Source of the DNA: a virus
Reading direction: 5' to 3' (one strand)
IMG/VR virus record: IMGVR_UViG_3300033141_001044
Span: 1-32,497 of that record
Length of the DNA stretch: 32,497 nt
Part shown: positions 1-32,497 of the stretch, piece by piece
How positions within the stretch are numbered: position 1 is the first letter of the stretch
How the letters are laid out: every line of letters starts with the position of its first letter
The notes under the pieces: generated by a model
Told to the model about the DNA's origin: nothing
Databases searched by the model: none
What the model saw: only the letters and a program-made list of their open reading frames with translations
Made by a program: the position numbers and the translations under genes

Positions 1-114
1 CGTATGCAGAAGGCCGTCGTTGTCGAAATCAACGTTGACCCCGCCGAAATCGAAGCGTTCAAAGACCAGGTCAAAACCATTCACGCGAAGGATAATCGCG
101 TCGCCAGTATTGGC
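1..114. repeat. Terminal direct repeat, left copy (circle junction)
   Basis: Bases 1-114 match 32384-32497 exactly. The reading frame at the right end runs straight into the frame at the left end, through codon CGT at 1-3 and ATG at 4. A perfect overlap that preserves a reading frame is typical of an assembled circular or circularly permuted phage genome, here with a 32,383-bp unit. A genuine short terminal redundancy is the other reading. Confidence 0.93.
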
Positions 115-984
115 GAAAAGCCGAACTTATTCAGCAAACCGGCGCAAGCCACGCCGCCCGCGCCGTCTTCACTGGCGGAAGCCGCGAAAGTCTCCGCGGA
201 AGACGCTGGCGTGGAAATGAAGGAAGTCAATCTGTTTAACCAGCCGGACCCGAACGCCTGGCGAACGGGGGAAGAAGAAGTCCGCCAGGAAGAACCGGAA
301 CTTGAATTCACATCCGAAGTTCTTTGTATCCCGCCCGCCCTGGCGACGATTGAAACACAGGTCGGGAAGGCCGTCCCTGGGTTGTTCAAACTTTACCAGG
401 AAGCTTCGTCGCTTCTTGAATTCGCGAAGGCCCGCGTTATCACCACGGCCGAAGACCTGAAGCCCGCGACGAATGACCTTTCCATTATCTTGACTTGTCG
501 AAAGGCCATGACCGCCAGGAAAGCGGAACTTGTCGGACCCCTGAAGGCAAAGCTTGACCTGGTCAACAAGGCATTCAACGACATTATGTATCCCGTCGTA
601 GAAGCCGACCGGTTGACCAGGGACCAGGTTCAAAAGTTTGACCGTGAACAACGGGCCAGGTCCGCGGCCGCAAAGCGAATCGAAGAAGAAAAGTTTCGAT
701 TGGCACAAGAAGAAGCGTCCTTGAAACAGGGCGAAATAACGATTCCCCTGGGGACCGTTGAAGAAGTCGCCCCGCCGCCCGAACGGACCCGAACGGACCT
801 GGGGACCCTGGGGGGGCGGGACAACTGGAAGGCCCGCGTCGTATCCTTCAAGGACCTTGACGACGCTTACAAGTTACCCGATATGCAAACCTTGAACGCG
901 AAGGCCAGGTCCAGCAAAGGGACCGCCGTCATTCCAGGGGTAGAATTCTACAACGAACGAAGCGTGACCGTCCGTACCAGGTAA
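1..984 (+). CDS. Coiled-coil early phage protein, 3' part (5' part is at the right end of the window)
   Basis: This is the last 327 codons of a gene that begins before the circle junction (see 32111-32497). There is no ribosome-binding site before the ATG at 4, so that ATG is not a real start. Across the junction the N-terminal part reads as a small beta-rich module (YTYFTDEPLGMGELVFVPV), which recalls the 3'BD-type DNA-binding fold of primosomal proteins. A Pro/Ala-rich linker follows, then a long helical, coiled-coil stretch (roughly residues 115-240 counted from base 4). The C-terminus ends with an IPGVEFYNERSVTVR motif. Proteins of this kind sit in phage replication/recombination clusters near Gp157- and DUF1351-like proteins, but I cannot name the family. 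Its place among replication genes suggests a DNA-metabolism role (inference). Confidence 0.8.
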   Translation, partial: RMQKAVVVEINVDPAEIEAFKDQVKTIHAKDNRVASIGEKPNLFSKPAQATPPAPSSLAEAAKVSAEDAGVEMKEVNLFNQPDPNAWRTGEEEVRQEEPELEFTSEVLCIPPALATIETQVGKAVPGLFKLYQEASSLLEFAKARVITTAEDLKPATNDLSIILTCRKAMTARKAELVGPLKAKLDLVNKAFNDIMYPVVEADRLTRDQVQKFDREQRARSAAAKRIEEEKFRLAQEEASLKQGEITIPLGTVEEVAPPPERTRTDLGTLGGRDNWKARVVSFKDLDDAYKLPDMQTLNAKARSSKGTAVIPGVEFYNERSVTVRTR

Positions 985-1008
985 ATTTAAGAAGGGGGAA
1001 ATGAAACA

Positions 1009-1647
1009 ATGACGAAATCATTATCTAACCAGGAAAAGAAGGCGAAGAAGGACGCCAGAAAACAACAAAAGGCCACTTCCACGACTTCGACCCATGTCAA
1101 CATTCCAAAGCATGAAGAAGGGCCCGCGGAACCGCCCGCGGACCCCGTGAACCTTTGCGACGTTTGCGCTTATGAGTTCGGTGAATGCGAAGGGAAACCG
1201 AAGCTTGCTTCGGATACCGACGACACGCTGACGGGGGCGGCGGCCGACCGCGTTATCGCTTGCGAAGGATTCTTGAACGTCGAAAAAATGCCAACCGCTG
1301 ACCAGGCGAAGAAGGACGCGGCCGCTGAACAACCGCGCCAGGGGGAAGGTCCCGACGCGGCCCATGACGGCGACGACGAAGGTCCTGGCGAAGCTGAAGA
1401 AGAAGAACCAGGGGAAACCGAAAAACTAACCCCGACCGACGAACTTCCTTATCGGCCCGCCGCTGGCCCGAACAAACCCGACCCGAAGCGGTTCCAGAAG
1501 GAAGAAGACTTCGGGGCTTGCCCGTCATGTAACCGGCCGCTGAAGCGAACGTCACTGAACCGATATATTGACGCGATACGTTGTACGAATCCACGTTGTC
1601 GGGCTTATCGGTCCGTCGTGAAAACTTTATCAACGGGGGTGAAGTAA
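1009..1647 (+). CDS. Two-zinc-ribbon protein, unknown function
   Basis: A 212-residue acidic protein. Its N-terminal Lys-rich segment is followed by a Cys cluster starting CDVC (about residues 50-53) with further Cys downstream. A long, disordered Glu/Asp/Pro-rich linker leads to a C-terminal zinc ribbon (CPSC near residue 171, then CTNPRC). The C-terminal ribbon resembles those that bind nucleic acid or act as protein adaptors. The start is set by GGGGG ten bases before the ATG. The gene lies 24 bp after the coiled-coil gene and ends two bases before the next start, so it is co-transcribed with them. Function is not assignable; a role in early DNA metabolism is inferred from position only. 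Confidence 0.85.
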   Translation: MTKSLSNQEKKAKKDARKQQKATSTTSTHVNIPKHEEGPAEPPADPVNLCDVCAYEFGECEGKPKLASDTDDTLTGAAADRVIACEGFLNVEKMPTADQAKKDAAAEQPRQGEGPDAAHDGDDEGPGEAEEEEPGETEKLTPTDELPYRPAAGPNKPDPKRFQKEEDFGACPSCNRPLKRTSLNRYIDAIRCTNPRCRAYRSVVKTLSTGVK

Positions 1648-1648
1648 A

Positions 1649-2545
1649 ATGGCGCAAGGAACGACAATCCCGAAGCAACAACTTTCAATAACGAATATCG
1701 AAATGGACGTCCCATATTCCCAGGGGACGAAGCAACTGGACCGCGTCCACGCCGTCAACCTTTCCCTTCCTGAAGGCGACCCGCTGGCGGGGAAGGATAT
1801 TCGTCTGACTATCTTTAACGGGGACCTGAAGACCTTCGTCCGCGGGAAGGCGAACATTGTCGCCGACATTGAAGAACGCCCCAGGCCAGGTCGTGATTAC
1901 GGTCCCGACCGAACCATTGTCCAGATATATGACGGCCAGGGGCAACCCGTTTCCAAGAAGCAATTTGGCGGCGGGGGTGGTTGGAAAGGGCGGTCACTGG
2001 AAGACGACCTGGCCCTGGAAAACGTGAAGCGTCGGTCCATTGAAGGACAAACGGCAATCGCCCAGGTCGGACTTGCCTTGACTTGCACGACCCCGCTTGA
2101 AGGCGACGACCTGGGAACCGACGAAGAAACCTGGAAGCGTATCCTGGCGAAGTATTGGCGCGCCGTGGAAAAGTCCCTGGACAACTTCCTGGACGAACCG
2201 CAATCCGCGAAACGGAACACAACAACAACACGGAAAGCCCCTGGCAACGCCCCAGGTCAACAACAAGCGGCCGCAACGACCGAATCAGTATCGAAGGACG
2301 CGCCGCCACCGCCACCTGCCGGAAAACGCCCTTCCGACCCGTTGCCCGACCGTGTGAAGAACGTCGGGGACCTTTTGACCAGGGCGAACAAAGTCGGGGT
2401 CAACCCCGCGCTTGCCGCTGAAATATTGGGGGTCCAGGAAGTAAGGGAAGTTATCAACCTTGACGGGTCCTGGAAACTAATACAAGCCTTCGCCGCCAAA
2501 AACAAAAAGGCGGACACGAACGACCCTGACGGGATATTTGCATGA
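1649..2545 (+). CDS. Early phage protein, possibly nucleic-acid binding, unknown family
   Basis: A 298-residue protein with three visible parts. Residues 1-105 are beta-rich, with alternating hydrophobic strands and a Gly-rich turn (QFGGGGGWKGRS), compatible with an OB-like fold. Residues 110-185 are helical (ending WRAVEKSLDNFLDEP). A low-complexity Thr/Gln/Pro linker then leads to a helical C-terminal domain (NVGDLLTRANKVGVNPALAA). The layout of OB-like core plus linker plus small C-terminal domain would suit a single-strand DNA-binding or annealing protein, but I see no diagnostic motif. GGGGG precedes the ATG by nine bases, and the stop overlaps the next gene by four bases. Confidence 0.85.
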   Translation: MAQGTTIPKQQLSITNIEMDVPYSQGTKQLDRVHAVNLSLPEGDPLAGKDIRLTIFNGDLKTFVRGKANIVADIEERPRPGRDYGPDRTIVQIYDGQGQPVSKKQFGGGGGWKGRSLEDDLALENVKRRSIEGQTAIAQVGLALTCTTPLEGDDLGTDEETWKRILAKYWRAVEKSLDNFLDEPQSAKRNTTTTRKAPGNAPGQQQAAATTESVSKDAPPPPPAGKRPSDPLPDRVKNVGDLLTRANKVGVNPALAAEILGVQEVREVINLDGSWKLIQAFAAKNKKADTNDPDGIFA

Positions 2546-2922
2546 GCGACCAAAAGCCGCGACGACCTTGTCCCTTATGGCTTCAGGACGACAGTCCGCC
2601 GGACCGCGATTATATCAAAAGACGTCGCGAAGAACTGGCGCGCCGCCGGAAGCTGAAAAAGGAACTTCTGGCGGAATGCCCCAGGGACGAAGCGGGGAAT
2701 ATCCTTTGTCCGCGTTGCGGGAAGCGGTCCGATTTCCGCGGGCTTCAACTGGTCCATAAGCAAAGCCTGGGAAGCGGCGGGAAGACAACCAGGGCGAATT
2801 GTTGTATCCGGTGTGCGCCTTGTCATTTCGGCTTCGGCGAACCCTGGTCCCATAGAACCGAAGGGCGGGCCGAATACGAAGCGGGGCTTGACAATAACGA
2901 TACAACCGCCGTACAATCCTAA
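2542..2922 (+). CDS. HNH endonuclease-like protein
   Basis: A 126-residue protein with a basic N-terminal helix (residues 23-43). An HNH-type zinc fold follows: Cys56-x2-Cys59, then the His72 region (GLQLVHKQSLGSGG), Asn86, and Cys91-x2-Cys94 followed by His95. HNH proteins are metal-dependent DNA nickases or endonucleases, often found in phage replication or packaging clusters. The second half of the metal motif is less canonical than in GVE6-type enzymes, so catalytic activity is not assured. The start overlaps the upstream stop (ATGA). Its 3' end contains the promoter at 2888-2917, so the end of this gene also serves regulation of the next one. Confidence 0.82.
   Translation: MSDQKPRRPCPLWLQDDSPPDRDYIKRRREELARRRKLKKELLAECPRDEAGNILCPRCGKRSDFRGLQLVHKQSLGSGGKTTRANCCIRCAPCHFGFGEPWSHRTEGRAEYEAGLDNNDTTAVQS
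2888..2917 (+). promoter_or_regulatory. Sigma70-type promoter for the ribbon-helix-helix gene, with operator-like repeats
   Basis: TTGACA (2888-2893), an 18-bp spacer and TACAAT (2912-2917). Five bases after the -35 box lies GATACA, and CGATACA (2898) and CCGTACA (2909) repeat 11 bp apart, one helical turn. The early promoter at 31823 has the same -35, spacer length, -10 and GATACA at the same offset. It lies inside the end of the HNH gene and 24 bp before the next ATG. Confidence 0.7.
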
Positions 2923-3927: not shown

Positions 3928-4797
3928 ATGGGGGCCGAAACCAGACTTCTATACGACGAACGTCCCCTGGTCGTTATCCCTGAACTGGCCCGAATGTTAT
4001 CGGCCATTAAGGGATTCGACGGCCTTCAGGAAGCCCTTGTTCTTCAACAGGTCCACTATTGGGTCATACTGAACAAACGGGCCAACCGTAACGAACAAGA
4101 CGGCTTCTTCTGGACGTATAACACGTTCAAGGAATGGCACGAACAATTCCCTTTCTGGTCCCTGGCGACAATCAAGCGAATATTCGGTCGCCTGGAAAAG
4201 GCGGGGTTCCTGATATGGGGGCGATTCAACAAGTCGAACATCAACCGAACGAAATGGTATCGCGTGGACCATGAAGCTATTTCCCGAATGGTTCAAAATG
4301 AACTATCCATTGTATCAGATTGCGACAATGGAGAGTGTCAACTTGACACAATGGATAGTGTCAACCTGATACAATCGGGCCAGGCTCAAGCTACGCACGA
4401 AAAAGAAGTACCAGAGAGTAACCATAGACTAACAACAGAGAATAACCAGAGAGTAACGGAATCTTCTTCTTTGAAGAAGCGCGCGCCGAAACTTCATTCC
4501 CGCCCGATATTTGCTGAAATTCAAAAGGAATTTGGGTTTCCTGAAAAGACACAAAAGGACCCGATACCGAATTACGGGAAGGAAGCGAAAGCGATTGACC
4601 GAATGCTGAAGCGGGGGTATAGTGAAGCCGAAATATTGGAAGCCTGGCGAACAAAGGTCAAGGCCAGGGGGGAATTCGTGTCGATGGTATGGGTCAATGA
4701 AGACATTGGCAAATCTGGACGCCCAAAGCAAACGACTTTCCTTCCGACCGAAAACGACCTGGTCGCCGCGGCCAAAGAAAAGGGGTTAAATACATGA
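3928..4797 (+). CDS. Replication initiator / replisome organizer, winged-helix type
   Basis: A 289-residue protein. Residues 10-115 form a helical plus winged-helix DNA-binding domain (WSLATIKRIFGRLEKAGFL, then a wing with YRVDH), as in phage replisome organizers of the DnaD/O-protein kind. Residues 125-180 are a low-complexity linker whose DNA holds the repeat clusters at 4303-4375 and 4411-4457. Residues 185-285 are a helical C-terminal domain (GYSEAEILEAWRTKV) likely to contact the helicase loader. Initiators that carry their own origin iterons inside the gene are known from lambda O and many siphoviruses. The next gene, overlapping by 4 bp, is a DnaC-type loader, which supports this. GGGGG lies nine bases before the ATG. 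Confidence 0.85.
   Translation: MGAETRLLYDERPLVVIPELARMLSAIKGFDGLQEALVLQQVHYWVILNKRANRNEQDGFFWTYNTFKEWHEQFPFWSLATIKRIFGRLEKAGFLIWGRFNKSNINRTKWYRVDHEAISRMVQNELSIVSDCDNGECQLDTMDSVNLIQSGQAQATHEKEVPESNHRLTTENNQRVTESSSLKKRAPKLHSRPIFAEIQKEFGFPEKTQKDPIPNYGKEAKAIDRMLKRGYSEAEILEAWRTKVKARGEFVSMVWVNEDIGKSGRPKQTTFLPTENDLVAAAKEKGLNT
4303..4375. other. Putative origin: three palindromic sites at 23-bp spacing
   Basis: Two adjoining 23-bp direct repeats (4320-4342 and 4343-4365) match at 20 of 23 positions. A partial third repeat lies at 4366-4375, and an inverted copy (CTATCCATTGTATCAG) at 4303-4318. Read another way, three 21-bp imperfect palindromes are centred at 4319, 4342 and 4365, exactly 23 bp apart. 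The best is GTGTCAA, C, TTGACAC. The related site at 13734-13754 shares 18 bases exactly. Iterons inside the initiator gene suggest the replication origin; autoregulation is the alternative. Confidence 0.7.
4411..4457. repeat. Second short-repeat cluster in the initiator gene
   Basis: CCAGAGAGTAAC occurs at 4411-4422 and again at 4446-4457, with a close relative, ACAGAGAATAAC, at 4435-4446. The stretch is more AT-rich than its surroundings and encodes a low-complexity linker. It may be the unwinding part of the origin or a second set of binding sites. Confidence 0.5.
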
Positions 4798-5378
4798 GCA
4801 ACGAAGACGAACGCCGCGAAGCATTATACCGGAACCGAATTTATGCCAACGTGTCCAGGTCGGGGGTTCCCGCCTGGACACAGAATGCCCGCCGGTTAGA
4901 CGACTTCCAGGAAACAACCGACAACGCGAAGGCCCTGGCCGCCGTTCGTGATTTCCTGGCGGGCGAAGTAACGCCGCCCCTGGTCCTGATTATCGGGATA
5001 CCAGGGACGGGAAAGTCACACCTGGCAATCGCCGCCGCCTGGGATTATCTGGAAGAAGGATATACAGTCCAGTATTACCAGGTTGAAGACTTCCTGGTCG
5101 GACTTCAATCAAGCCTGGACGACGGGAAGGAATACAAGCGATTATGGGCCAGGGCGAAGGACGCTGACCTTCTTATCCTGGACGATATGGGCGCGCACAA
5201 TCCGACAAACTGGCGGACGTCACAACTGGACGCCCTGGTTGATTTCCGATACCGCGAAGCCCTTCCCCTGATAATGACTTGTAACAAACTAGACTTCAGC
5301 GACCGAATCCTGGACCGCGTCAAGGACGGACGGTCCGCGGTTATCACGGGCGAAAGCTGGCGGGGGAAAACGAAATGA
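4794..5378 (+). CDS. dnaC: DnaC/IstB-like AAA+ helicase loader
   Basis: A 194-residue ATPase. Walker A is GIPGTGKS (residues 68-75) and Walker B is LLILDD (126-131). A sensor-1-like segment (LIMTCNKLDFSD) and an arginine-bearing C-terminus (DRVKDGRSAVI) follow, in the order seen in DnaC/DnaI/IstB ATPases. These load the replicative helicase onto origin DNA. No helicase or polymerase is encoded, so the phage must recruit the host DnaB-type helicase and replisome. The gene overlaps the initiator by 4 bp (ATGA), the usual initiator-loader pairing. It is shorter than E. coli DnaC (245 residues), with a reduced N-terminal helicase-binding region. Confidence 0.9.
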   Translation: MSNEDERREALYRNRIYANVSRSGVPAWTQNARRLDDFQETTDNAKALAAVRDFLAGEVTPPLVLIIGIPGTGKSHLAIAAAWDYLEEGYTVQYYQVEDFLVGLQSSLDDGKEYKRLWARAKDADLLILDDMGAHNPTNWRTSQLDALVDFRYREALPLIMTCNKLDFSDRILDRVKDGRSAVITGESWRGKTK

Positions 5379-8108: not shown

Positions 8109-9295
8109 TGAACGTCGAACAAGACAGCGACCGGCGGATAATATACCAGGCTGGCGACGTCGTCGGCGTTGCGAATTATGGCTTCCTGGGGAAGCTGGCA
8201 TATAAAATATTCGAACCACAAACGCCGTTCTTCCACTTCTTCTTGATAGACGGATACCTGAAAGGCGAAGACGACTATTCGATAATTGAAAGTGTCGCGA
8301 AGGGCCCGACAATGGGTCGCCTTTCCTGGTATGCGAAGCGGGATTATCAAGTCTTCAGGGTCAACGAAGAACATAAAACATTCTGGCCCGTCTTTAACAC
8401 CCATAAATACCGCTTGAACGCGTCGCGGTCGGCTGAATACCTGGGGGAAATCGCCGTCGGGAAGGCGTCGAAGTTCGGTCGTCACGGATACGACTTCGCG
8501 CTATACCTGAAACTTCTGGTCGGCGCCCTTCAATTCCAGGTCAATCGCCTGGCCCACGGGGAACGTCCACGGCGAATGACACCCGAAGACGTTCCATATT
8601 CCAGGGACAAGTCCTTCGTTTGTACTGAACTTGTATTCGAAGCCTGGCGCGCGGTCGGGATTGAACTTCGCGCCCCAGGTCACGCCCCGATTCCTTGTGA
8701 ATTCGTCCTGGCGGAAGCCCGCGGCGAACTCAACCAGATTGACTTCCACAACGGAACCCAGGGGCAAACTTGGCGGTCACGTCAAACCGGCCCGCCCCGA
8801 CTGGCGTTATGTCCCAGGTCCGAAATGAAGCGTGAAGGTTGTGGAATGTGTTCGTTGCGTTACGTTTGCGACGACCCAGGGCGGGACGACGTTTCGATAA
8901 TGTCGCTATACTCGACGGCCAGCACCGAAATTAAACCGAAACCAGGTCCCGACCTTATAGGCCGCCAGGGGGGACAAAAGCGGAACCGCGTCCACGTTTA
9001 CCGTCAACCGCACGGATACCCGATTCGTTTCTGTGACGGGGAAACATTCGACAAAGAAGACCTGGAAGCCTTGGGTAAATGCACAGGGGGCGACGGCTCT
9101 TCTGAACCGGCAATGTTGAAAATGGCCCTGGCCCTTCAGGAACGGACGCCTGGCGTTGTTATCTGTAAGCATTGCCTGGCAATTCTGGACGGGAAGCGCG
9201 GAAACGGTTCGGCTGACCGTGGTTATGGTGTCCAGCGATTCCTTTTATTGACTAAATGGCAAGTTAAGGCTACAACCCAGGGGGCGTTGATATGA
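8108..9295 (+). CDS. Permuted papain-fold (NlpC/P60, YiiX-like) protein with zinc-binding C-terminus
   Basis: A 395-residue protein. Residues 10-205 look like a permuted NlpC/P60 fold: GDVVGVANYG, then His43 in TPFFHFFLID, and the nucleophile Cys172 in SFVCTELVFEAW. Such proteins act as amidases, peptidases or acyltransferases. Residues 235-254 hold a Cys cluster (Cys235, 245, 248, 254). Residues 275-395 form a separate C-terminal domain with CKHC. I see no signal peptide and the gene sits among early genes, so it is not an obvious endolysin, although no other peptidoglycan hydrolase is visible. Removal of a host protein or lipid modification is an alternative. The start ATG follows GGGGG. 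Confidence 0.7.
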   Translation: MNVEQDSDRRIIYQAGDVVGVANYGFLGKLAYKIFEPQTPFFHFFLIDGYLKGEDDYSIIESVAKGPTMGRLSWYAKRDYQVFRVNEEHKTFWPVFNTHKYRLNASRSAEYLGEIAVGKASKFGRHGYDFALYLKLLVGALQFQVNRLAHGERPRRMTPEDVPYSRDKSFVCTELVFEAWRAVGIELRAPGHAPIPCEFVLAEARGELNQIDFHNGTQGQTWRSRQTGPPRLALCPRSEMKREGCGMCSLRYVCDDPGRDDVSIMSLYSTASTEIKPKPGPDLIGRQGGQKRNRVHVYRQPHGYPIRFCDGETFDKEDLEALGKCTGGDGSSEPAMLKMALALQERTPGVVICKHCLAILDGKRGNGSADRGYGVQRFLLLTKWQVKATTQGALI

Positions 9296-10461
9296 CGGAA
9301 CCGGTGAAGAAGGAAACACACAATATACTCGAATCGCTTTTACCATTGGCGGTTACTATTGACAAGGTAAAGCTGGACCCGCGGAATGCCCGCACACATC
9401 CCGAACCGAATATGGCGGCTATTCAACAAAGCCTTAAAGCATACGGCCAGCGTAAACCGATTGTCGTCAATGCCAGGACGGGGGAAATCGAAGCGGGCAA
9501 CGGATTATTCCAGGCGGCCGTCAATTTAGGCTGGACCCAGGTCGCCGCGGTCATGGTCACGGACGACGAAGACACGGCGAAGGGTTATGCTATCATGGAC
9601 AATCAAAGCGCGTTACTGGCGGAATGGGACTTCCCCGTCCTGAAGGACTTACTTCAAGAACTGGACACGGGGGCGTTCGACATGGACTTGACGGGCTTCA
9701 ACCAGGGGGAAATCGAAGACCTTATGACGCGATTCCAGGTTATCGAACCAGGGAAGACCGACGACGACGCAATCCCTGAAGAAGTCGAAACGATATGTAA
9801 GACAGGCGACCTCTGGATGTTAGGTAATCATCGGCTCTTATGTGGTGATGCTACTATTATAACGGATGTGGAGAAGTTGATGGGGGGCGAGAAGGCTGAT
9901 ATGGTATTCACTGACCCGCCTTATGGGATAGCTTATAAAGACGTAAAAGGTAAGCATAAGCCGATTGTCAATGATAATGGTGTGGCAATCTCTGAATTAC
10001 TAGCATTGTTGCCCTTCGATATTCCCAGTTACGTTTGCTGTAATTGGCAAAGCTATCCAGAATATTATAAAGCAATACCCGATGTGAAAGCTCTTATTGT
10101 CTGGGATAAAGGGCATGGAGTCCAGAATCTGGACAAGTTCTATAAACGCCATGAATTTATTATCTATCGTGGTGAATACGGTGGACAAAAGACGGTGGAT
10201 GGGGATGTTTGGTTGGTTGATAGGGAAGTAAGGGCTGACCATCCTACGGCGAAGCCAGTTCTGCTCATTGAAAAAGCTATCGGCTATTCTAGTTTCGTGG
10301 GGCAAATAGTCCTTGACCTCTTCGGTGGCTCCGGCTCCACACTAATAGCCTGTGAGAAGCTAGGTCGCAGGTGTTTTATGATGGAGATAGACGAGCATTA
10401 CTGCGATGTCATAATCAAGCGGTGGGAAGATTTCACGGGAAGGAAGGCGGTCAAGCTATGA
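9292..10461 (+). CDS. ParB-like domain fused to beta-class DNA adenine/cytosine-N4 methyltransferase
   Basis: A 389-residue protein. Residues 15-160 are a ParB/Srx-like domain (KLDPRNARTHPEPN, GNGLFQAAVNLGW). Residues 170-389 are an amino-methyltransferase: GDLWMLGNHRLLCGDAT, catalytic DPPY at 208-211, and the S-adenosylmethionine-binding DLFGGSGS at 342-349. The order DPPY before FxGxG makes it class beta. It would methylate phage or host DNA, probably against restriction; the target is not readable. The ParB half has the phage's usual codons (GAA, GAC, CTG). From about base 9805 the DNA switches to GAG- and CTC-containing, more AT-rich codons, so the catalytic half looks recently swapped in. 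GGGGG precedes the ATG. Confidence 0.9.
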   Translation: MTEPVKKETHNILESLLPLAVTIDKVKLDPRNARTHPEPNMAAIQQSLKAYGQRKPIVVNARTGEIEAGNGLFQAAVNLGWTQVAAVMVTDDEDTAKGYAIMDNQSALLAEWDFPVLKDLLQELDTGAFDMDLTGFNQGEIEDLMTRFQVIEPGKTDDDAIPEEVETICKTGDLWMLGNHRLLCGDATIITDVEKLMGGEKADMVFTDPPYGIAYKDVKGKHKPIVNDNGVAISELLALLPFDIPSYVCCNWQSYPEYYKAIPDVKALIVWDKGHGVQNLDKFYKRHEFIIYRGEYGGQKTVDGDVWLVDREVRADHPTAKPVLLIEKAIGYSSFVGQIVLDLFGGSGSTLIACEKLGRRCFMMEIDEHYCDVIIKRWEDFTGRKAVKL

Positions 10462-11568: not shown

Positions 11569-12041
11569 CACACGACGAACTTGTAACCAGGGCGACGGCC
11601 TGGTTGAAGAAGCGTAAACGTTGCGGCGTGGTCCTGGCCGAATATCATTGCTGGACCGCGGAAATACCCGACGCAATCGGCTTCAGGAACGATTATTCAA
11701 TACTGGTCGAATGTAAGGCCCACAAGTCCGACTTCCAGCGGGACCGTCGAAAGCCTTGTCGAAACCGCGGGGAAAATCACTTTGGGAATTATCGCTTCTT
11801 CCTGGTTCCTGAAGGACTGGTCCAGGCCGAAGACATCCCCGAAGGTTGGGGCTTGTTATATGCCAGGCCGCGGGGAATAGCCGTAATCGTCACGGCCCCG
11901 CGTCATACGTCGCCCGCGATAAAAGCCGAAGAATACGGGATATTGTATTCCCTGGGCCGCCGCGCGGAACTTCGGGGCCTTATTCCGACCTTGACGAAAC
12001 CGCTTGATAACGGGTCCGTTTATTACGAAGGGGGCAAATGA
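11565..12041 (+). CDS. PD-(D/E)xK superfamily nuclease
   Basis: A 158-residue protein with the restriction-nuclease core. Glu33 and Asp36 lie in AEIPDAIGF, and Glu49-x-Lys51 in SILVECKAHKSDFQRDRRK. That spacing matches MmcB/VRR-NUC-like nucleases (PD, then ExK on the next strand, then SDF-x-D). A Cys-rich NHFGNYRFFLVPEGL segment follows. It cuts DNA in a metal-dependent way; in a packaging cluster it may process branched DNA for the terminase. It overlaps neighbours by 4 bp on both sides, and GGGGG precedes the start. Confidence 0.82.
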   Translation: MTHDELVTRATAWLKKRKRCGVVLAEYHCWTAEIPDAIGFRNDYSILVECKAHKSDFQRDRRKPCRNRGENHFGNYRFFLVPEGLVQAEDIPEGWGLLYARPRGIAVIVTAPRHTSPAIKAEEYGILYSLGRRAELRGLIPTLTKPLDNGSVYYEGGK

Positions 12042-13525
12042 TTACACGAACGCCGTACCGATTCAAAGACGCCGCGACCGAATTCAACGGCCGCCAGGTG
12101 GAAGACCTTCTTGACTGGACCAGGACGCCGTCAACGGTTGGCGCGTACCTTTCCCGCGGCGCATATACCAGGCCGAAGCATATCGAATATTTATCGGAAC
12201 GAATAACGGAAATCGCGGAAGGGTCCCGCTTCTTTGTCTTCACGGTCCCGCCTCAACACGGCAAGTCCGAACTTGTGTCCCACTGGACGCCCGTCTGGTT
12301 CCTGAAGAAGTTCCCCTGGAAGAAGGTCGGCCTGGCGTCTTACGAAATGGGTTACGCTTCGGAATGGGGCGGCAAGGCGAAGGACACAATCAACGAAAAC
12401 GCCGACGACCTGGGCCTGGAACTTCGCCAGGATACGAAAGCGAAGGGCCGCTGGAACCTTCGGGGATATGGCGGTGGTATGTTCGTCGCTGGTATCGGGG
12501 GACCTTTCACGGGGCGCGGGTTCGACCTGATTATCATTGACGACCCTATTAAGAATCACGCCGAAGCCCTTTCGGACGTTTACCGGCGGCGGAATTGGGA
12601 CTGGTATCGTTCCGTTGCCAGGACCAGGCTTGCCCCTGGGGGTTCCATTATCCTGATTATGACCCGCTGGCATGAACAAGACCTGGCGGGCGCGCTTATG
12701 GGGAACCCGCCCGAAGACGACGAAGACGACGCCTTCATTGAAGACGAAGACTTCGAACCGGACGCATGGGAATGTATCAATCTTCCCGCCCTGGCCGAAG
12801 ACAACGACGTCCTGGGACGGAAGAAGGGCGAAGCCTTATGGCCCGAACGATACGACGCGCCCGCAATCAGAAAGGCCAGGTTCGCCGCTGGTCCGTATTG
12901 GCGAACCGCCTTATACGAAGGTCGCCCGCAACCTGAAGGCGGCGGGATTATCAAGACAGGCTGGTTCAAGACGTATGACGACGACGACCTTCCGAAGTCC
13001 TTTTCCCGCGTCGTTCAGATATGGGACACGGCCCACAAGGAAAAACAGAAGCATGACCGTTCGGCTTGCCTGACAATCGGATATACAGCGAAGCCGCGGC
13101 GATACTTCCTTCTTGACCTATTCGTTGACCGGCTGGCATTCCCTGACCTGACCCGCGCGGCCGAAGCGCAATATTCGAAATGGGAACCCGACCGCGTCAT
13201 TATCGAAGACAAGGCGTCGGGCATTTCGCTTATTCAGCAATTACGGCGGGACACTCATATTCCGATTCGGGCAATCAAAGCCGTGGACGACAAGGTCACA
13301 AGGGCGCACACAGTCACCGGCGTCATGGACGGCGGACAAGTCCTGATTCCGCGCTTCGCTTCCTGGTTGTCTGATTTCCTTCAGGAAGTCGGGGCCTTCC
13401 CGACCGGCGCGCATGACGATATTGTGGACGTCCTGGTCCACGGCTTGCGATACCTGAAGCCGCGATTGCGTACTGGACGGGCGGGCGTCGAACACGAAAC
13501 GAAGACGTCCCGCTGGAAGGACTGA
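12038..13525 (+). CDS. terL: Terminase large subunit
   Basis: A 495-residue packaging motor. The ATPase domain has Walker A PPQHGKSE (71-78), Walker B LIIIDD (164-169) and a coupling segment (ILIMTRWHEQD). The nuclease domain has Asp330 in VQIWDTAHKEK, Glu390 in RVIIEDKASG and Asp460/461 in AHDDIVDVLVHGL, the acidic triad of the RNase H-like terminase nuclease. Length and order are normal for the family. The start follows GGGGG and overlaps the nuclease gene by 4 bp. It makes the cuts at the packaging site and pumps DNA into the prohead through the portal. Confidence 0.96.
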   Translation: MITRTPYRFKDAATEFNGRQVEDLLDWTRTPSTVGAYLSRGAYTRPKHIEYLSERITEIAEGSRFFVFTVPPQHGKSELVSHWTPVWFLKKFPWKKVGLASYEMGYASEWGGKAKDTINENADDLGLELRQDTKAKGRWNLRGYGGGMFVAGIGGPFTGRGFDLIIIDDPIKNHAEALSDVYRRRNWDWYRSVARTRLAPGGSIILIMTRWHEQDLAGALMGNPPEDDEDDAFIEDEDFEPDAWECINLPALAEDNDVLGRKKGEALWPERYDAPAIRKARFAAGPYWRTALYEGRPQPEGGGIIKTGWFKTYDDDDLPKSFSRVVQIWDTAHKEKQKHDRSACLTIGYTAKPRRYFLLDLFVDRLAFPDLTRAAEAQYSKWEPDRVIIEDKASGISLIQQLRRDTHIPIRAIKAVDDKVTRAHTVTGVMDGGQVLIPRFASWLSDFLQEVGAFPTGAHDDIVDVLVHGLRYLKPRLRTGRAGVEHETKTSRWKD

Positions 13526-13527
13526 AC

Positions 13528-13770
13528 ATGATTACATCTTTTCAACGGGGACACCTTATCGAATACGCTGGTGGTCAATGGATTTATGCCGATGATAAAA
13601 CGACGATAGCGAAGGAACGTCCCTGTATTCGTTGCGGAAGATTACCGACGCCGGAAGGGTTCGACGCTTGCTTGGGATATTTGCCAGGCGTTAAATCGGC
13701 TTGTTGTGGACATGGCCGCGCGATAGCTTCCCGATTGTATCAACTTGACACAATGGAGCGCGACAAGTAG
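13528..13770 (+). CDS. Conserved phage zinc protein (CIRCG...DACLGYLPG...ACCGHG)
   Basis: An 80-residue protein with CIRCGRLPTPEGFDACLGYL, then GVKSACCGHG. This Cys-rich pattern is a conserved uncharacterised family, often found near head and packaging genes of phages of Gram-positive bacteria (from memory, not searched). The ligands suggest one or two structural zincs. The 3' end contains the promoter at 13745-13773 and the 21-bp palindrome at 13734-13754, so this coding tail doubles as a regulatory region. The ribosome site is weak (GGAAGGAC). Confidence 0.82.
   Translation: MITSFQRGHLIEYAGGQWIYADDKTTIAKERPCIRCGRLPTPEGFDACLGYLPGVKSACCGHGRAIASRLYQLDTMERDK
13734..13754. promoter_or_regulatory. 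21-bp palindromic operator over the late promoter
   Basis: ATTGTATCAA (left arm), a central C at 13744, and TTGACACAAT (right arm), with one mismatch between the arms. It covers the -35 box of the promoter at 13745. Bases 13740-13757 match 4338-4355 in the initiator gene exactly (18 bases), so the same protein probably binds both places. Confidence 0.68.
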
Positions 13771-13773
13771 AAT
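13745..13773 (+). promoter_or_regulatory. Probable late promoter before the portal gene
   Basis: TTGACA (13745-13750), a 17-bp spacer, then TAGAAT (13768-13773). The -35 is perfect and the -10 has one mismatch to TATAAT. It stands 40 bp before the portal ATG and would start transcription of the head genes. The -35 lies inside the palindrome at 13734-13754, which would let a bound protein block or modulate it. Confidence 0.72.
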
Positions 13774-13812
13774 CATTCCAAAGGCCCGAAATAACCGAAG
13801 GGGGTTGCGACA

Positions 13813-16026
13813 ATGGTCGAAAACTCAAAACGGGGATACACACCGCCGGACCCGAATTCTAAACGTAGTCAACGCCGCCGCGATAATGAAGGGCGGCGTC
13901 CCCATAATCACCAGGAAGACACGGGCGGGAACATCAAAACTGTAATCGGCGTCACAGGGTTGAAGCATATCGGCGGGCAAATCCGCGAAGAATACCTGAA
14001 CGCTCTTAGGAACTGGTCAACTGAAGTCAAGCTATACCTGGAAATGCGCGACGACCCGATATGCGGGTCCCTGGTAGACGCAATCAAGCTTCCCCTTCAG
14101 GCCGCACAGTTTGACGTTGAACAATCCCCAGGGGGCGCGCCCAACGACGAAGCCGCGGCCGAATGGTTATGGGACGTTATGAATAATATGGACGGCCAAA
14201 CGTGGATTTCTCACGTTGAAGACGCCCTGGAATGCCTGGACTTCGGGTTCGCCTTATCGGAAATCGTCCTGGACAAACGGGCCGACGGCCGACTTTGGTT
14301 GAAGAACATTGACCCACGCGGTCAAGATAGCCTGGACCATTGGCTATACAACGAAACCGAACGGGACAAACTGGAAGCCTTCGTTCAGCGTGACCCGAAT
14401 TATGGCGGAACCTACACGATACCGCTTTCGAAATGCGTTCATTTCACATACAAAGGACGGAAGGGAAACCCCCAGGGTCATTCCATTTTACGGGCCTTAT
14501 ATCGGCCGTATAAGTTCGCGCGGAATCTGGAAGACCTGGAAGGAATCGGAATTGAGCGGGACGTCGGCGGAATGCCGTACGCGAAGCTGACCGACGACAA
14601 CTTCGAACCGGACGACATGGACGACTTGAAAAAGGCATTGAAGGGCCTTCGGAAGGACGAAGAAGCTTATCTTATCGCCCCGCCTGGCGTGGAAATTCAA
14701 GCTTACGGCGGCGGGTCGAAGGTATATGACGTCAACCAGGTAATTGACCGCTGGCATAAAATAACGCTAATGCGCTTCTTCGCGCAATTCCTTATTTTAG
14801 GAATGGGAAGCGTTGGGACACAGTCGCTTGTCAAAGGGTCCCAGGACTTCTTCACGCTCGTACTGGAAGCGGTCCAGCGGTATCTTCTGGAAGCCTGGAA
14901 CCTTCAGCTTGTCCCGTATCTTTTCAGGTTCAACGCCTGGACGGGTATTTCGGGGTATCCGAAAATCGTTTGGGAAAAACCAGGGACCGTTGACCTGAAC
15001 GCGCTTATCACGGCATTGAATACAGCGAAGGGCGCGGGAATCTTCACGCCGACCGACCTTGACGAAGACCACCTTCGAAGCATTGCTGACCTTCCCGAAC
15101 TTCCCGAAGAAGAACGCGGGGGCCTTCGTGATGTTGAAGCCCCGCCAATGGGCGGCTTGTTCGACCTTCCTGATAAACTGGACGACCTGGGGAAGCAAGT
15201 CAAGGACCTATTCATACGATACGCCGCCAGGCCGAAAGCTGGCCAGAAGCAAAGAATCGGGTCGGGGACGTACGAAGAACGGACCAACCGGCAACAACGG
15301 AAACTGGTCCGCGTATATGACGAATGGTCCGCGGCCTTGAAGCGTGACCTGGCCGCGCTGACAAAGAAGGGGGCGACTTCCGCCGAACTTCAAGTACACC
15401 TGGACGCGGCTATTCCGAAGCTGGAAGCGCGCCTGGTTGAAATCCAGTCGGCGGGAATCAAGTCCGCGGCGAAGACGGCCGCCGGTTCACGGGCGGAACT
15501 TCCCGCGGTCCTGGCGAAGACCGACCAGCAAATCCGTGACAACGTCGCGTTGATTCAAAGGAACCTGGTTCCCAGGATACATGAAAAGCTGACCCTGGCC
15601 CTGGCCCTGGCGGTTCCCCTGGCCATTGGCGGAATCGGCGGGCTGGCCGTTGAACAACAGAAGTCCGTTGCCCTGGCCATTAAGAACGCGACCCTGGCGG
15701 GGCGTTCCATGCCCGCCCAATATGCGGGCGGATATTGGGTCGCTATATTTGAAACCGAAAAGACCCTGGGAAGCGTTCGGGAAGCTGAACGGTCCGCCTT
15801 GGGGCTTGACCCCGAACCCGTCCGTTGGGACCTGGACCCGCGGGCCGTTCATTGTAAAGCGTCGCCTGGATTTTATGGTTGTCCTGACCTGGCGGGCGAA
15901 TACAAGGGCGGCTGGTCCACACTTCCGACGGTCCCCGCTGGACAAGTCACTTGTCGCGGGAATTGTCGTTGTCGAATATCCGTCTTCAGGGACGGCCAAT
16001 GGCAACGCGGGGTATATGACGACTAA
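13813..16026 (+). CDS. Portal protein (Mu gp29/DUF935-like) fused to Mu-F-type head morphogenesis domain
   Basis: A 737-residue protein. Residues 40-430 resemble the DUF935 portal family (EEYLNALRNWSTEVKLYLEM, then DPICGSLVDAIKLPL; CVHFTYKGRKGNPQGHSILR). Residues 490-737 resemble SPP1 gp7/Mu F minor head proteins, ending with the family's Cys/His signature (HCKASPGFYGCPDLAGEY, then CRGNCRCRISVF). The portal is the DNA gate at one capsid vertex, and the Mu-F part is usually a separate gene just downstream. Here both are in one open frame with no stop. The ATG follows AAGGGGG and lies 40 bp from the late promoter. Confidence 0.9.
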   Translation: MVENSKRGYTPPDPNSKRSQRRRDNEGRRPHNHQEDTGGNIKTVIGVTGLKHIGGQIREEYLNALRNWSTEVKLYLEMRDDPICGSLVDAIKLPLQAAQFDVEQSPGGAPNDEAAAEWLWDVMNNMDGQTWISHVEDALECLDFGFALSEIVLDKRADGRLWLKNIDPRGQDSLDHWLYNETERDKLEAFVQRDPNYGGTYTIPLSKCVHFTYKGRKGNPQGHSILRALYRPYKFARNLEDLEGIGIERDVGGMPYAKLTDDNFEPDDMDDLKKALKGLRKDEEAYLIAPPGVEIQAYGGGSKVYDVNQVIDRWHKITLMRFFAQFLILGMGSVGTQSLVKGSQDFFTLVLEAVQRYLLEAWNLQLVPYLFRFNAWTGISGYPKIVWEKPGTVDLNALITALNTAKGAGIFTPTDLDEDHLRSIADLPELPEEERGGLRDVEAPPMGGLFDLPDKLDDLGKQVKDLFIRYAARPKAGQKQRIGSGTYEERTNRQQRKLVRVYDEWSAALKRDLAALTKKGATSAELQVHLDAAIPKLEARLVEIQSAGIKSAAKTAAGSRAELPAVLAKTDQQIRDNVALIQRNLVPRIHEKLTLALALAVPLAIGGIGGLAVEQQKSVALAIKNATLAGRSMPAQYAGGYWVAIFETEKTLGSVREAERSALGLDPEPVRWDLDPRAVHCKASPGFYGCPDLAGEYKGGWSTLPTVPAGQVTCRGNCRCRISVFRDGQWQRGVYDD

Positions 16027-16170: not shown

Positions 16171-16374
16171 ATGATAACCGGCAATACCATATATTGCGAT
16201 TGTTGCGGAACTGAAAAGCTGGCCCAGGTCGTCGGCGATAACCTGGTTATTAAGGACCGGCGACACGGGGAAAAGCATATCGCCGTCGTCCCGATTAAAT
16301 CATTACTTGACATTATAAATACTGCGAACGATAATGGTCGAAAGGACCAGGTCGCGGAAGTGGCCAAAACTTAA
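16171..16374 (+). CDS. Small protein with CDCCG motif
   Basis: A 67-residue protein with a CDCCG motif near the N-terminus (residues 9-13), a basic beta-rich middle (VIKDRRHGEKH) and an acidic helix. Only three Cys are present, so zinc binding would need His34/His38 or dimerisation. The ribosome site is poor (no G-run). The gene contains the promoter at 16307-16335 that would serve the tRNA. Function unknown. Confidence 0.7.
   Translation: MITGNTIYCDCCGTEKLAQVVGDNLVIKDRRHGEKHIAVVPIKSLLDIINTANDNGRKDQVAEVAKT
16307..16335 (+). promoter_or_regulatory. Promoter for the tRNA
   Basis: TTGACA (16307-16312), a 17-bp spacer, GATAAT (16330-16335; one mismatch). The predicted start is about 50 bases before the tRNA. 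Together with the terminator at 16491 it would form a separate tRNA transcription unit inside the structural region. Confidence 0.6.
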
Positions 16375-16391
16375 CAACTGAATACAGGCGG

Positions 16392-16465
16392 CGCGGGTAG
16401 GACAAACGGAAAGTCGGCGTTCTCATAAGTCGCAGAACGGGGTTCAATTCCCCGACCCGCTACCA
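16392..16465 (+). tRNA. tRNA-Met (CAT anticodon), initiator-like
   Basis: A 74-nt cloverleaf with encoded CCA. The acceptor is CGCGGGT / ACCCGCT, with all pairs except a C1-T72 mismatch. The D stem is GAC/GTC with A11-T24. The anticodon loop is CTCATAA (CAT at 16424-16426). The T arm is CGGGG / CCCCG around TTCAATT, with discriminator A. An unpaired 1-72 end and A11-T24 are hallmarks of bacterial initiator tRNA. However, the anticodon stem (GCGTT / GTCGC) has only three good pairs and lacks the three G-C pairs next to the loop. A lysidine-type tRNA-Ile(CAT) is the alternative. It lies between head genes and a terminator. Confidence 0.85.
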
Positions 16466-16490
16466 AAGACCGCCCATTGTTGGCCCGACC

Positions 16491-16530
16491 AACCCCGACA
16501 GACGGATTTCCGTCCTTCGGGGTTTTTGTT
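16491..16530 (+). terminator. Intrinsic terminator after the tRNA
   Basis: A two-part stem, CCCCGA / TCGGGG and GACGGA / TCCGTC, with a small internal loop and a two-base loop, followed by TTTTTGTTTTT. It is the strongest terminator in the window. It would end the tRNA transcript, and possibly part of the portal transcript. Confidence 0.88.
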
Positions 16531-16554
16531 TTTGACCTGGTCGGGGGTTCGGAA

Positions 16555-16752
16555 ATGGAGTGCCCGAATTGTCGAAACGAAATGAGAATAAACGAAACGC
16601 TTTCCCGTGGAATGGGGAACCAGTCCTTTCAGGATTGCCCTGTTTGCGGGCTTGTGACGTTGTGTTCGGGTGAACTAATTCAACAAGCCTGGCGTCCTTC
16701 TGACGACGTTAAAAAGGGGGGAAACGAATATGCCATTCGGACCGTATGCTGA
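16555..16752 (+). CDS. Zinc-ribbon protein
   Basis: A 65-residue protein from the ATG at 16555, with CPNC (residues 3-6) and CPVC (residues 29-32) forming a zinc ribbon. GGGGG precedes the start. A longer reading from 16477 would run through the terminator stem and is rejected. It overlaps the next gene by 23 bp. It contains GAG trinucleotides (ATGGAGTGCC, GAATGAGAAT) that are rare elsewhere, so it may be a recent arrival. Confidence 0.72.
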   Translation: MECPNCRNEMRINETLSRGMGNQSFQDCPVCGLVTLCSGELIQQAWRPSDDVKKGGNEYAIRTVC

Positions 16753-18451
16753 TTTCGACGAATGTGTTTTGAAAAATTCTGACAAGTCCAGTCCTGAAGG
16801 CTTCTGCGCCTGGTTACATAAAAAGATATTGGGGACCTGGCCGTCGGAAATGTCCGACGCTAAATTTCCCGAATCCTGGTTGAATGCTTATGACGCGGCC
16901 CTGGTTGCGAAGAAGCCCGAAAAGGAAGCTTTCGCATTGGCCGAAACCGCGGCCCAGGAAGCGGGCTTCGAAAAGGCGTCCTTCGGTTGGGTCAAGCAAT
17001 ACCAGGCCCCGAACATGAAAACCGTCAAGGACGTATATGTTTTCGCTTCGGGTACATGGACCGACAGCGCGGGCAACGAACGGACCTGGACGAACGACGA
17101 ATTGGATAGAATGGTCGTCGCTTTCAAGGCGGGCGTTCCCGTCATGGTTCCCGTCAAATGCGGACACACGTCCGACGACTTTAACGCAAAGATAGCCGAA
17201 GCCCTGGGGGTCCCGAACGAAGTTATCACGGGGGACCACGGCCAGGGTCAAATCAAAGTTGGAAATATGACTTCTCTTGAACGGAAGGGTGACTGGAACG
17301 TTGCCACTTTCGGCAATATCCCCGAACCGATAGCCGACCTTATCGAAGGCGGTCAATACTCGACCGTATCGGTTGAGATTGAAGACGAAATCGGGGAATA
17401 TGGTCCCGCCATAACAGGCGTCGCTTTACTAGGCGCGGAAGAACCAGCAGTCGAAGGGGCGACCCTGGAAAAGGCCCTGGTATTTGGCGGGGCAAGAAAA
17501 GGCGCGCGTGTATGGTCGTTTAGTCGCGACCAGTTACCCGACCCCGTGACGCTTCGGTCGGAGTTTGACGACATACGAAGCAAGGTCGCGGACATTATCA
17601 AGGGGAAGAAAGGCGCGCCGCTTTTCAGGGCATTGTTCGGCAATATAACCGAACTATTCGAACACATGGTCAACGGTAGTCATGCCGCTGAACCAGGGTC
17701 CGGCAAAACGGACCCGAACCAACGCGCCGCAAATGACCAGGGGAATGACGCCCTGGCAAAGAATAAATTGGAAAAGGGGGAAAAACTAATGAAATTACCC
17801 AAAGTCCTTGAAGGCAAAAAGCCCGAAGCTATTCGGGCCATGACTATTCCGGCCCTGGCAAAGCTTTTCGCTGAAGGGGAAACCCCGAAGGTTGAAGAAC
17901 TTTCCGCCGCTTTCCAGGAAGGCGACCTGGCCGCTATTGCCGCGGCCCTGGGCCTGGGCGAAGAAGCAACGCCGGAAGATATTATGACGGCAATCGCCGC
18001 CATGATTGAAAAGGCCAAAGCCGTCCCTGAAGGGAACGAAGGCGGGGAATTAGGAAAGGAACTTCAGAAGGCGAACGATAAAATCGCGGACCTGACGAAG
18101 CGACTGGACGGGCAAGCGGCCCTTTCTGCATGGAAGGAAAAGACGTCCGCATTCGTGAACATCCCTGGGACGCCGACTGAACACGCGGCAAGCCTGGCCA
18201 ACATTGAAACAAAGGCGGGCAAGGAAGCCGCCGAATCACAGTTCGCCGCCCTGGAAGCCGCGAACAAACTGGCCGCCGAAGCTCAAAAGGTTATCGGAAC
18301 GACCAGGTCCACGGGCCCGACTGACTTCGATAACGAAGTCGCGAAGTACATGGACGCTCACGCCGACACAACGAAGGTCAAGGCTATTGAAGCCGTTTCC
18401 AAATCACACCCTGACCTATACTTCGCCAGGCGGGAATCCTGGAACCAGTAA
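16730..18451 (+). CDS. Prohead protease with C-terminal scaffold (Mu gpI-like)
   Basis: A 573-residue protein. Residues 1-85 are a helical N-terminal extension (SWLNAYDAALVAKKPEKEAFALAE, broken for length). Residues 100-255 match the Mu I-type prohead protease: FASGTWTDSAGNERTWTNDE, His146 in VKCGHTSDD, GDWNVATFGNIPEPIADLI, Ser214 in YSTVSVEIED, and the family-typical ITGVALLGAEEPAV. Residues 300-573 are Ala/Glu-rich and helical, as in scaffolds. It would guide capsid assembly and then cleave the scaffold. An in-frame internal start at 17789 gives a scaffold-only product (see that entry). GGGGGG precedes the ATG. Confidence 0.88.
   Translation: MPFGPYADFDECVLKNSDKSSPEGFCAWLHKKILGTWPSEMSDAKFPESWLNAYDAALVAKKPEKEAFALAETAAQEAGFEKASFGWVKQYQAPNMKTVKDVYVFASGTWTDSAGNERTWTNDELDRMVVAFKAGVPVMVPVKCGHTSDDFNAKIAEALGVPNEVITGDHGQGQIKVGNMTSLERKGDWNVATFGNIPEPIADLIEGGQYSTVSVEIEDEIGEYGPAITGVALLGAEEPAVEGATLEKALVFGGARKGARVWSFSRDQLPDPVTLRSEFDDIRSKVADIIKGKKGAPLFRALFGNITELFEHMVNGSHAAEPGSGKTDPNQRAANDQGNDALAKNKLEKGEKLMKLPKVLEGKKPEAIRAMTIPALAKLFAEGETPKVEELSAAFQEGDLAAIAAALGLGEEATPEDIMTAIAAMIEKAKAVPEGNEGGELGKELQKANDKIADLTKRLDGQAALSAWKEKTSAFVNIPGTPTEHAASLANIETKAGKEAAESQFAALEAANKLAAEAQKVIGTTRSTGPTDFDNEVAKYMDAHADTTKVKAIEAVSKSHPDLYFARRESWNQ
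17789..18451 (+). CDS. Nested scaffold protein from an internal start
   Basis: In frame with the protease, codon 354 is an ATG preceded by AAAAGGGGG at eight bases, the same ribosome site used by the strong capsid genes. The 220-residue product (MKLPKVLEGKKPEAIRAM...) holds only the helical scaffold part, including a coiled coil (LGKELQKANDKIADLTKRLD). Lambda C/Nu3 and Mu I/Z make their scaffolds the same way. A scaffold made in excess over the protease is what capsid assembly needs. Confidence 0.8.
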   Translation: MKLPKVLEGKKPEAIRAMTIPALAKLFAEGETPKVEELSAAFQEGDLAAIAAALGLGEEATPEDIMTAIAAMIEKAKAVPEGNEGGELGKELQKANDKIADLTKRLDGQAALSAWKEKTSAFVNIPGTPTEHAASLANIETKAGKEAAESQFAALEAANKLAAEAQKVIGTTRSTGPTDFDNEVAKYMDAHADTTKVKAIEAVSKSHPDLYFARRESWNQ

Positions 18452-31818: not shown

Positions 31819-31822
31819 AGAC

Positions 31823-31852
31823 TTGACAAGGGCGATACATGGGCGATACAAT
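31823..31852 (+). promoter_or_regulatory. Early promoter with operator-like repeats
   Basis: TTGACA (31823-31828), an 18-bp spacer, TACAAT (31847-31852). CGATACA repeats at 31833 and 31844, 11 bp apart, with GATACA five bases after the -35 box, exactly as at 2888. It stands right after the gene ending at 31818 and would drive the early operon across the circle junction. It is the best sigma70-type promoter in the window. Confidence 0.8.
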
Positions 31853-31901
31853 AAACGACCTGGGGAATGACCCCAGGGAAAAACGAAAGGAAGGTGAAAA
31901 A

Positions 31902-32246
31902 ATGGGAATGCCAGAAGAACCAGAATATCAGATGTTTGAATACACTTGCCCGCATTGCGGGAAACATCACGAAGAAGCGGGGTCGGTTAAATGTCATACT
32001 GATAATATGACTTGTCCGTTTTGTGGGAAGAAGGGAAGCGACCCAAAGGACGAACGACCGACCGGAACTTGTAAGCATGGGAAATTCATTCTGACTGAAG
32101 GTTGTCCGCAATGTATCGCGGAACGCCAGGCGGCCGAAGTCGAAATCAAGTCGTCGAAGTCGAAATCAAGTCGTTCGAAAACATCAGGAAGCGGGCTGAC
32201 GAAGCCGAACAACGCGCCGCCGCCCAAGAACCGCCCGAACCAGTAA
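31902..32246 (+). CDS. Zinc-ribbon early protein, truncated by a tandem duplication
   Basis: A 114-residue protein from the ATG at 31902 (AAAGGAAGG upstream). It has CPHCGKHHEE, CPFCGKKG and CKHGKFILTEGCPQC, at least two zinc sites. After residue 84 the frame passes through a 20-bp tandem duplication and ends as a low-complexity tail (KSKSSRSKTSGS) that looks unselected. With a single copy of the 20-mer it would continue into the coiled-coil protein at 1-984, giving one 481-residue protein. So either this is a broken gene, or two proteins now replace one. Confidence 0.78.
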   Translation: MGMPEEPEYQMFEYTCPHCGKHHEEAGSVKCHTDNMTCPFCGKKGSDPKDERPTGTCKHGKFILTEGCPQCIAERQAAEVEIKSSKSKSSRSKTSGSGLTKPNNAPPPKNRPNQ

Positions 32247-32497
32247 AGCCCGCCCCGCCCGTATCACTCGTTAAGGTCCGGTATTATTCCGAAACGAAGG
32301 GCGAAATGAGTGGTCGCCCTTATACTTATTTCACCGACGAACCCCTGGGAATGGGCGAACTGGTATTTGTCCCCGTTCGTCAACGTATGCAGAAGGCCGT
32401 CGTTGTCGAAATCAACGTTGACCCCGCCGAAATCGAAGCGTTCAAAGACCAGGTCAAAACCATTCACGCGAAGGATAATCGCGTCGCCAGTATTGGC
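32111..32497 (+). CDS. Coiled-coil early phage protein, 5' part (continues at base 1)
   Basis: The open frame runs from a stop at 32096 to the window end and continues at 1-984. In-frame ATGs are at 32111, 32306 and 32351; only 32306 has a weak ribosome-like GAAGGGCGAA. The credible coding part begins after the tandem duplication: EIKSFENIRKRADEAEQRAA, a Pro-rich stretch, then VKVRYYSETKGEMSGRPYTY. Since the frame before the duplication (MYRGTPGGRSRN) does not look like protein, the ancestral start was probably that of the zinc-ribbon gene at 31902. Confidence 0.68.
   Translation, partial: MYRGTPGGRSRNQVVEVEIKSFENIRKRADEAEQRAAAQEPPEPVKPAPPVSLVKVRYYSETKGEMSGRPYTYFTDEPLGMGELVFVPVRQRMQKAVVVEINVDPAEIEAFKDQVKTIHAKDNRVASIG
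32135..32174. repeat. Perfect 20-bp tandem duplication
   Basis: CGAAGTCGAAATCAAGTCGT at 32135-32154 is repeated exactly at 32155-32174. As 20 is not a multiple of three, it shifts the reading frame. Removing one copy joins two open frames without a break. Confidence 0.93.
32384..32497. repeat. Terminal direct repeat, right copy
   Basis: Identical to 1-114 (see that entry). It marks the circle junction, so bases 32384-32497 should not be counted twice. Confidence 0.93.

Follow-up and report, generated by a model that had tools for sequence, protein, structure and literature searches.

Avoidance of the bare trinucleotide GAG/CTC in a clade of uncultured tailed phages and its possible origin in a host restriction-like system

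The window analysed here is a phage contig of 32,497 bases, the whole of virus record IMGVR_UViG_3300033141_001044, with plus-strand genes for a terminase large subunit (TerL; 12038..13525, Pfam Terminase_6C/6N), a Mu-type portal protein (13813..16026, Pfam Portal_Mu) and a DnaD-like replication or helicase-loader protein (3928..4797), as well as a ParB-N6/N4 methyltransferase gene (9292-10461). Over its full length (1..32497) it is depleted of the trinucleotide GAG and its complement CTC, which occur 53 and 55 times (108 in total) where an order-1 model predicts 454 and 355, giving observed/expected ratios of 0.12 and 0.15. GAG/CTC is the lowest of the 32 triplet pairs, with a pooled ratio of 0.13 (0.10 under an order-0 model), the next-lowest pairs being CTA/TAG, CAC/GTG and GCA/TGC at 0.57-0.60 (order-1). 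The residual sites are scattered across the window except for two clusters, one in the DnaD-like gene (4331-4451) and one in the methyltransferase domain (about 9760-10461). The initial annotation had described this depletion, and the counts under both models bear it out; the claimed loss of more than tenfold is surpassed in sister phages (25-30-fold) and a little high for the window itself (about 8-10-fold), and the roughly 40 GAG and 30 CTC it reported outside the methyltransferase domain (9760-10461) come to a slightly higher 47 and 47 on recount. GATC and CCSGG are absent from the window, and CCWGG is enriched (414 sites).

A scan of IMG/VR with the window's terminase, which also served for the tree, yielded 40 related loci. 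The close clade has GAG/CTC ratios of 0.03-0.22, loci L016 and L017 lie at 0.78-0.99, L021 at 0.47 and more distant relatives at about 0.7-1.1. When the scans were extended with profiles of TerL and the portal, this split into avoiders and non-avoiders held, and three more window genes used as queries brought in just two new contigs, one avoider and one non-avoider. The clade consists of uncultured tailed phages from many metagenomes. Its strict avoiders together hold 191 GAG and CTC in 164 kb (ratio about 0.03), with whole-record counts of 40 in 35.5 kb for genome G003 (0.04) and 32 in 35.8 kb for G004 (0.03); the non-avoiding G160 has 859 in 28.6 kb. CTC/GAG is the lowest triplet pair in all 40 clade loci, and among 149 loci of at least 9 kb outside the clade the lowest pair falls below 0.3 (order-1) only in L158, a contig of 71% G+C with a handful of AAT sites. 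A sequencing or assembly artefact is ruled out, as many metagenomes yielded contigs with the pattern, and imported genes are spared within an otherwise affected contig. The portal profile, also used for finding relatives, gave a match that is continuous in the window, unlike that of many relatives, where an interruption of up to 0.9 kb near residue 466 divides it into two parts (L002 5768-6332, L014 6369-7225).

The loss goes beyond what proteins and codon usage impose. Under a null model in which synonymous codons were swapped among positions of the same amino acid, thereby keeping proteins and codon usage, GAG and CTC across codon borders in 15 relatives number 163 against an expected 1612. 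Within the frame, GAG makes up 2% of the Glu codons and CTC about 1% of the Leu codons of these relatives, while AAG accounts for 70% of Lys; in the window, Glu is nearly always GAA (96%), as first annotated, whereas Lys is AAG in 61% of cases. The depletion therefore hits every reading frame and both strands with proteins and codon usage held fixed, which is the pattern of restriction-site avoidance. The genes concerned lie on a single strand and have lost GAG and CTC to the same extent in each of the three frames, so that the word is targeted in double-stranded DNA and not in mRNA, codons or tRNAs, in agreement with the initial annotation. Pressure on codons or mRNA would remove the word from the sense strand or in frame only; codon bias, tRNA bias and an mRNA-cleaving toxin are ruled out by the equal loss of CTC in all frames. 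Neither of the two outcomes that would contradict the depletion, a frequency near expectation or a loss of in-frame GAG alone, was found on testing.

The avoided word is the bare trinucleotide. All 16 NGAGN contexts stand at 0.000-0.094 of expectation in the 164 kb of strict avoiders, from 0 of 464 for both GGAGC and GGAGG to 25 of 266 for TGAGT, and a longer GAG-containing motif is thereby ruled out; likewise, the k-mer check proposed at the outset identified no single GAG-containing 4-mer that accounts for the signal. A stepwise motif search, conditioned at each step on the motifs already accepted, chose CTC/GAG first and took it as the only 3-mer in three of three groups. As GAG is non-palindromic and no longer context explains its loss, the pattern is not that of orthodox Type II sites, which have at least 4 bp and are usually palindromic.

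The routes by which the word is escaped separate selection from mutation. Ahead of AG, Ala is encoded by GCC in 72% and by GCG in 3% of cases, while ahead of AA it is GCG in 74%; GCC in turn makes up 1% of Ala codons ahead of TC and 38% ahead of TT. Gly codons ahead of G are GGC (57%) or GGG (40%), with GGA at just 1% in the clade, which upholds the earlier observation that avoidance crosses codon borders. The altered base varies with the frame, all three positions of the triplet are used, transversions are included, and where one change would be non-synonymous another is used instead. One directional mutation bias cannot explain the loss because different bases are altered in different frames, which rules out a single directional mutation of GAG such as A to G or C to T. 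Selection against the double-stranded word GAG/CTC can explain it.

Avoidance extends to the ribosome-binding sites. In the strict genomes GGGGG lies upstream of 25 of 38 (G003), 29 of 43 (G004) and 21 of 34 (G158) starts, and in each of them a single start has GGAG or GAGG, while the non-avoiders G160 and G159 have GGGGG at 2 of 34 and 3 of 35 starts and GGAG or GAGG at 22 of 34 and 20 of 35. The partly reverted G156 is mixed, with 15 GGGGG and nine GGAG or GAGG among 37 starts. In the window, plus-strand GGGGG sites, the wobble form of GGAGG, precede a gene starting at 1009 (994..998), the TerL gene (12030..12034, start 12038) and the portal gene (13800..13804, start 13813). Comparison of these sequences suggests that the AAGGAGG of non-avoiding relatives has likely become AAGGGGG in avoiders, which would still be able to pair with a CCUCC anti-Shine-Dalgarno sequence by G-U wobble.

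Avoidance is reversible within the group. The TerL tree places it at the base of the clade with at least two losses, in L016/L017 and separately in L021. Three changes in all are forced by its starred branches, most simply read as a single gain followed by two losses. Presence in some lineages and loss in others is what a host-dependent pressure leads to. In partly relaxed genomes, GAG recovers jointly with GATC and CCSGG. The ratios for GAG, GATC, GCAG and GATG are 0.19, 0.29, 0.32 and 0.35 in G157 and 0.45, 0.68, 0.50 and 0.84 in G156, and this joint rise is roughly as expected of a neutral drift back of words of three to four letters.

Imported genes give an indication of the strength of selection. 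Two islands in G008 (locus L208), one with HNH and pentapeptide-repeat genes (13125-14111) and one with a PAPS-reductase-like gene and its neighbour (16204-17535), together with the methyltransferase segment of the window, hold 91 GAG against 89 expected and no GATC against 11 expected. The window segment (9760..10461, +), the C-terminal half of the ParB-N6/N4 methyltransferase gene, has 14 GAG against 21 expected and 11 GATG against 5.7, lacks GATC and CCWGG, and looks like a recent import. As GAG is normal and GATC absent in these genes, selection on each GAG site is weak, though persistent: either the donors were already devoid of GATC or GATC was purged at once, and GAG was not. The residual levels in strict genomes, zero for GATC and CCSGG and 3% for GAG, agree with a weaker selection per site on GAG than on GATC. 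In the other cluster of the window (4331-4451), the DnaD-like gene has seven GAG within about 120 bases, in near-repeats of AGAGAGTAAC.

The window's own methyltransferase is ruled out as the cause by its absence from strict avoiders. No homologue was found in them, it is missing from most avoiders, and no methyltransferase was recognised among the 47 scanned proteins of G003 and G004 with Pfam or among the PHROG families listed. Genes resembling methyltransferases occur in three relaxed genomes (the window, G155 and G156), only a hint, from very few genomes, that modification may replace avoidance. The nearest homologue of the window gene among the loci is that of the non-avoider L023 (48%).

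GAG is not the sole avoided word. In the clade GATC is seen at 1 of 431 and CCSGG at 5 of 669 expected sites, and GCAG, GATG, GGTG, GTAG, GTGC, CCAAG and CTTAAG are avoided as well. CCGG, GANTC, GTAC and CATG show all-or-none avoidance that varies by lineage within the clade, as expected of Type II restriction. In L020, GAG is accompanied solely by GATC, CCGG, CATG, GCWGC and GAATC/GATTC, all of them palindromes or parts of palindromic sites (GAATC/GATTC lies within GANTC), with GAG the odd one out; GAG avoidance can therefore occur apart from that of GATG, GGTG and the remaining short asymmetric words. Across the clade there is a 3-5-fold enrichment of CCWGG, with 538 sites in G003 and 569 in G004, while in the window and clade CTTGG/CCAAG is down to about 0.07 and CCSGG is absent. 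This enrichment is a phenomenon separate from the loss of GAG, and the pattern resembles the outcome of a Vsr-type repair bias or of selection for CCWGG. In the more distant L023 and L266-L272, CCWGG is fully absent (0.00), the opposite of the window's clade. A tRNA gene with a CAT anticodon is kept in several members (window 16392-16465, L204 11259-11332, L210 8365-8438); in G003 and G155 the usual T ahead of the anticodon is replaced by C, turning CTCAT into CCCAT, and the gene may be degenerate.

The hosts have been sought by sequence comparison. Scanning about 85,000 genomes (GTDB) for the portal and TerL returned no clade member, and neither a TerL profile run on 147 genomes from the best match's order nor phage and plasmid collections revealed a host. 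The best TerL matches in the genome scans, at 43-44%, lie in genomes of Methanomassiliicoccales, one of them (43%) metagenome-assembled, whose loci have only TerL in common with the window in a gene-by-gene comparison. A DnaC/IstB-like helicase loader (4794..5378, +), together with DnaD-like and DnaA-like domains, suggests bacterial hosts.

With a probability slightly above even, the phages were long exposed to a restriction-like system of their hosts that targets the bare, non-palindromic 3-bp word GAG/CTC in double-stranded DNA, and the loss was selected in response. The hosts would attack DNA at this word, each remaining site would add a small risk, as with a nicking or low-efficiency restriction enzyme combined with host modification, and under long-lasting selection the phage lineage would lose GAG/CTC. 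The fuller statement, that the hosts, probably bacteria, carry a defence recognising the bare word, shorter than any known prokaryotic restriction target, and that this accounts for its clade-wide erasure including the ribosome-binding sites, is put at somewhat less than an even chance. Several points weigh against this account. Neither host nor enzyme was identified in the genome, phage and plasmid scans, and to our knowledge no restriction enzyme of prokaryotes recognises just 3 bp. With so short a site, the host would need to modify its DNA about once every 32 bp. Imported genes are tolerated with about 75 GAG sites at once, so that each site can carry only a small penalty. GAG also fades together with several other short words and may be part of a broader set, and published site avoidance is nearly confined to orthodox Type II systems (PMC6286503).

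The main rival, itself unlikely, is that GAG (or CTC) serves a highly active CRISPR-Cas system of the host as its protospacer adjacent motif (PAM) and that the phages erased potential protospacers. Motifs of this kind normally have 2-4 nt, act on either strand regardless of context and carry a small cost per site, which fits both a bare 3-mer and the GAG-rich islands, and their depletion in phages has been published (PMC4246573, PMC12174588). The published depletion is modest, however, and found mainly between phage groups, compared with a 30-fold purge here, and these phages also avoid many words of the restriction type. An alternative without any 3-bp system is the joint action of several ordinary restriction enzymes whose longer sites contain GAG; many known sites of 4-7 bp include GAG or CTC, and depletion is strongest in some contexts flanked by G+C (GGAGC and GGAGG as against TGAGT). 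This is improbable, given that no context exceeds 0.094, that the hosts of every member would have to share at least four enzymes, together covering all NGAG or all GAGN words, and that L020 loses GAG with palindromic companions only.

The initial annotation had left a biased mutation or repair process beside host pressure on a short motif; the latter fits best, and the former finds no support. A deaminase, Vsr-like patch repair or error-prone repair at GAG would turn the word into others, and the rise of CCWGG with the fall of CTTGG/CCAAG is indeed what Vsr-type repair would be expected to produce, so that biased repair may operate in these phages. As the cause of GAG loss it is nevertheless very improbable: the changed base varies by frame across all three, non-synonymous changes are swapped for others, GAG is normal in imported genes, lineages have lost the avoidance, and GAG recovers together with restriction words where it is relaxed. 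Least probable is a phage-encoded GAG-specific nuclease directed at host DNA, whose own target the phage avoids. Chlorella viruses do encode a 3-base nicking enzyme, R/AG, with a methyltransferase (PMC7248222, PMC8845596), and one weak HNH match lies in the window (2542-2922). Yet homologues of this gene occur in two loci only, and Pfam and the PHROG families listed for the 47 proteins of G003 and G004 reveal RuvC as the only nuclease, and no methyltransferase.

The extent to which these phage genomes have been reshaped, with codon pairs, the choice of Leu, Glu and Ser codons and Shine-Dalgarno sequences rewritten around intact proteins, shows how far such a pressure can reach. The purge of a 3-bp word predicts that the hosts have an undescribed enzyme or PAM of this target length, which would be of use for cutting or marking DNA densely. 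The clade, with its strict, relaxed and reverted members and its GAG-rich islands, provides a natural series for the speed at which avoidance is gained and lost.

Among known systems, Ssp phosphorothioation defence has the motif CCA; it marks host DNA, and the motif need not be present in the phage for attack. It thus offers a 3-base DNA motif in bacterial defence, although the motif is not GAG. The literature search found no precedent for trinucleotide avoidance and no described prokaryotic system with a GAG target. Asymmetric 3-base specificity is known from chloroviruses, where Nt.CviQII (R/AG) is paired with M.CviQII (AG) and Nt.CviPII recognises CCD (PMC7248222, PMC8845596). GAG falls within RAG, but these enzymes are carried by algal viruses and not by bacteria, and an R/AG nickase would lead to avoidance of both GAG and AAG, whereas in G003 and G004 AAG is enriched 1.9-fold (order-0) and GAG stands at 0.03. 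PAM depletion in phages (PMC4246573, PMC12174588) is similar in that a word of 2-4 nt is lost in any context, but its effects are modest, while about 97% of sites are gone here. There is also a likeness with the restriction-site avoidance of prokaryotic viruses described by Rusinov et al. 2018 (PMC6286503), in which phage genomes lose short double-stranded words to a degree that proteins and codon usage do not account for, and the clade's avoidance of GATC, CCSGG, CCGG, GANTC and CATG is textbook restriction-site avoidance. The difference lies in a bare, non-palindromic 3-mer purged 30-fold and ribosome-binding sites rewritten, where known cases nearly all belong to orthodox Type II systems. 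Site avoidance itself is thus known, and a 3-bp target as its cause would be new.
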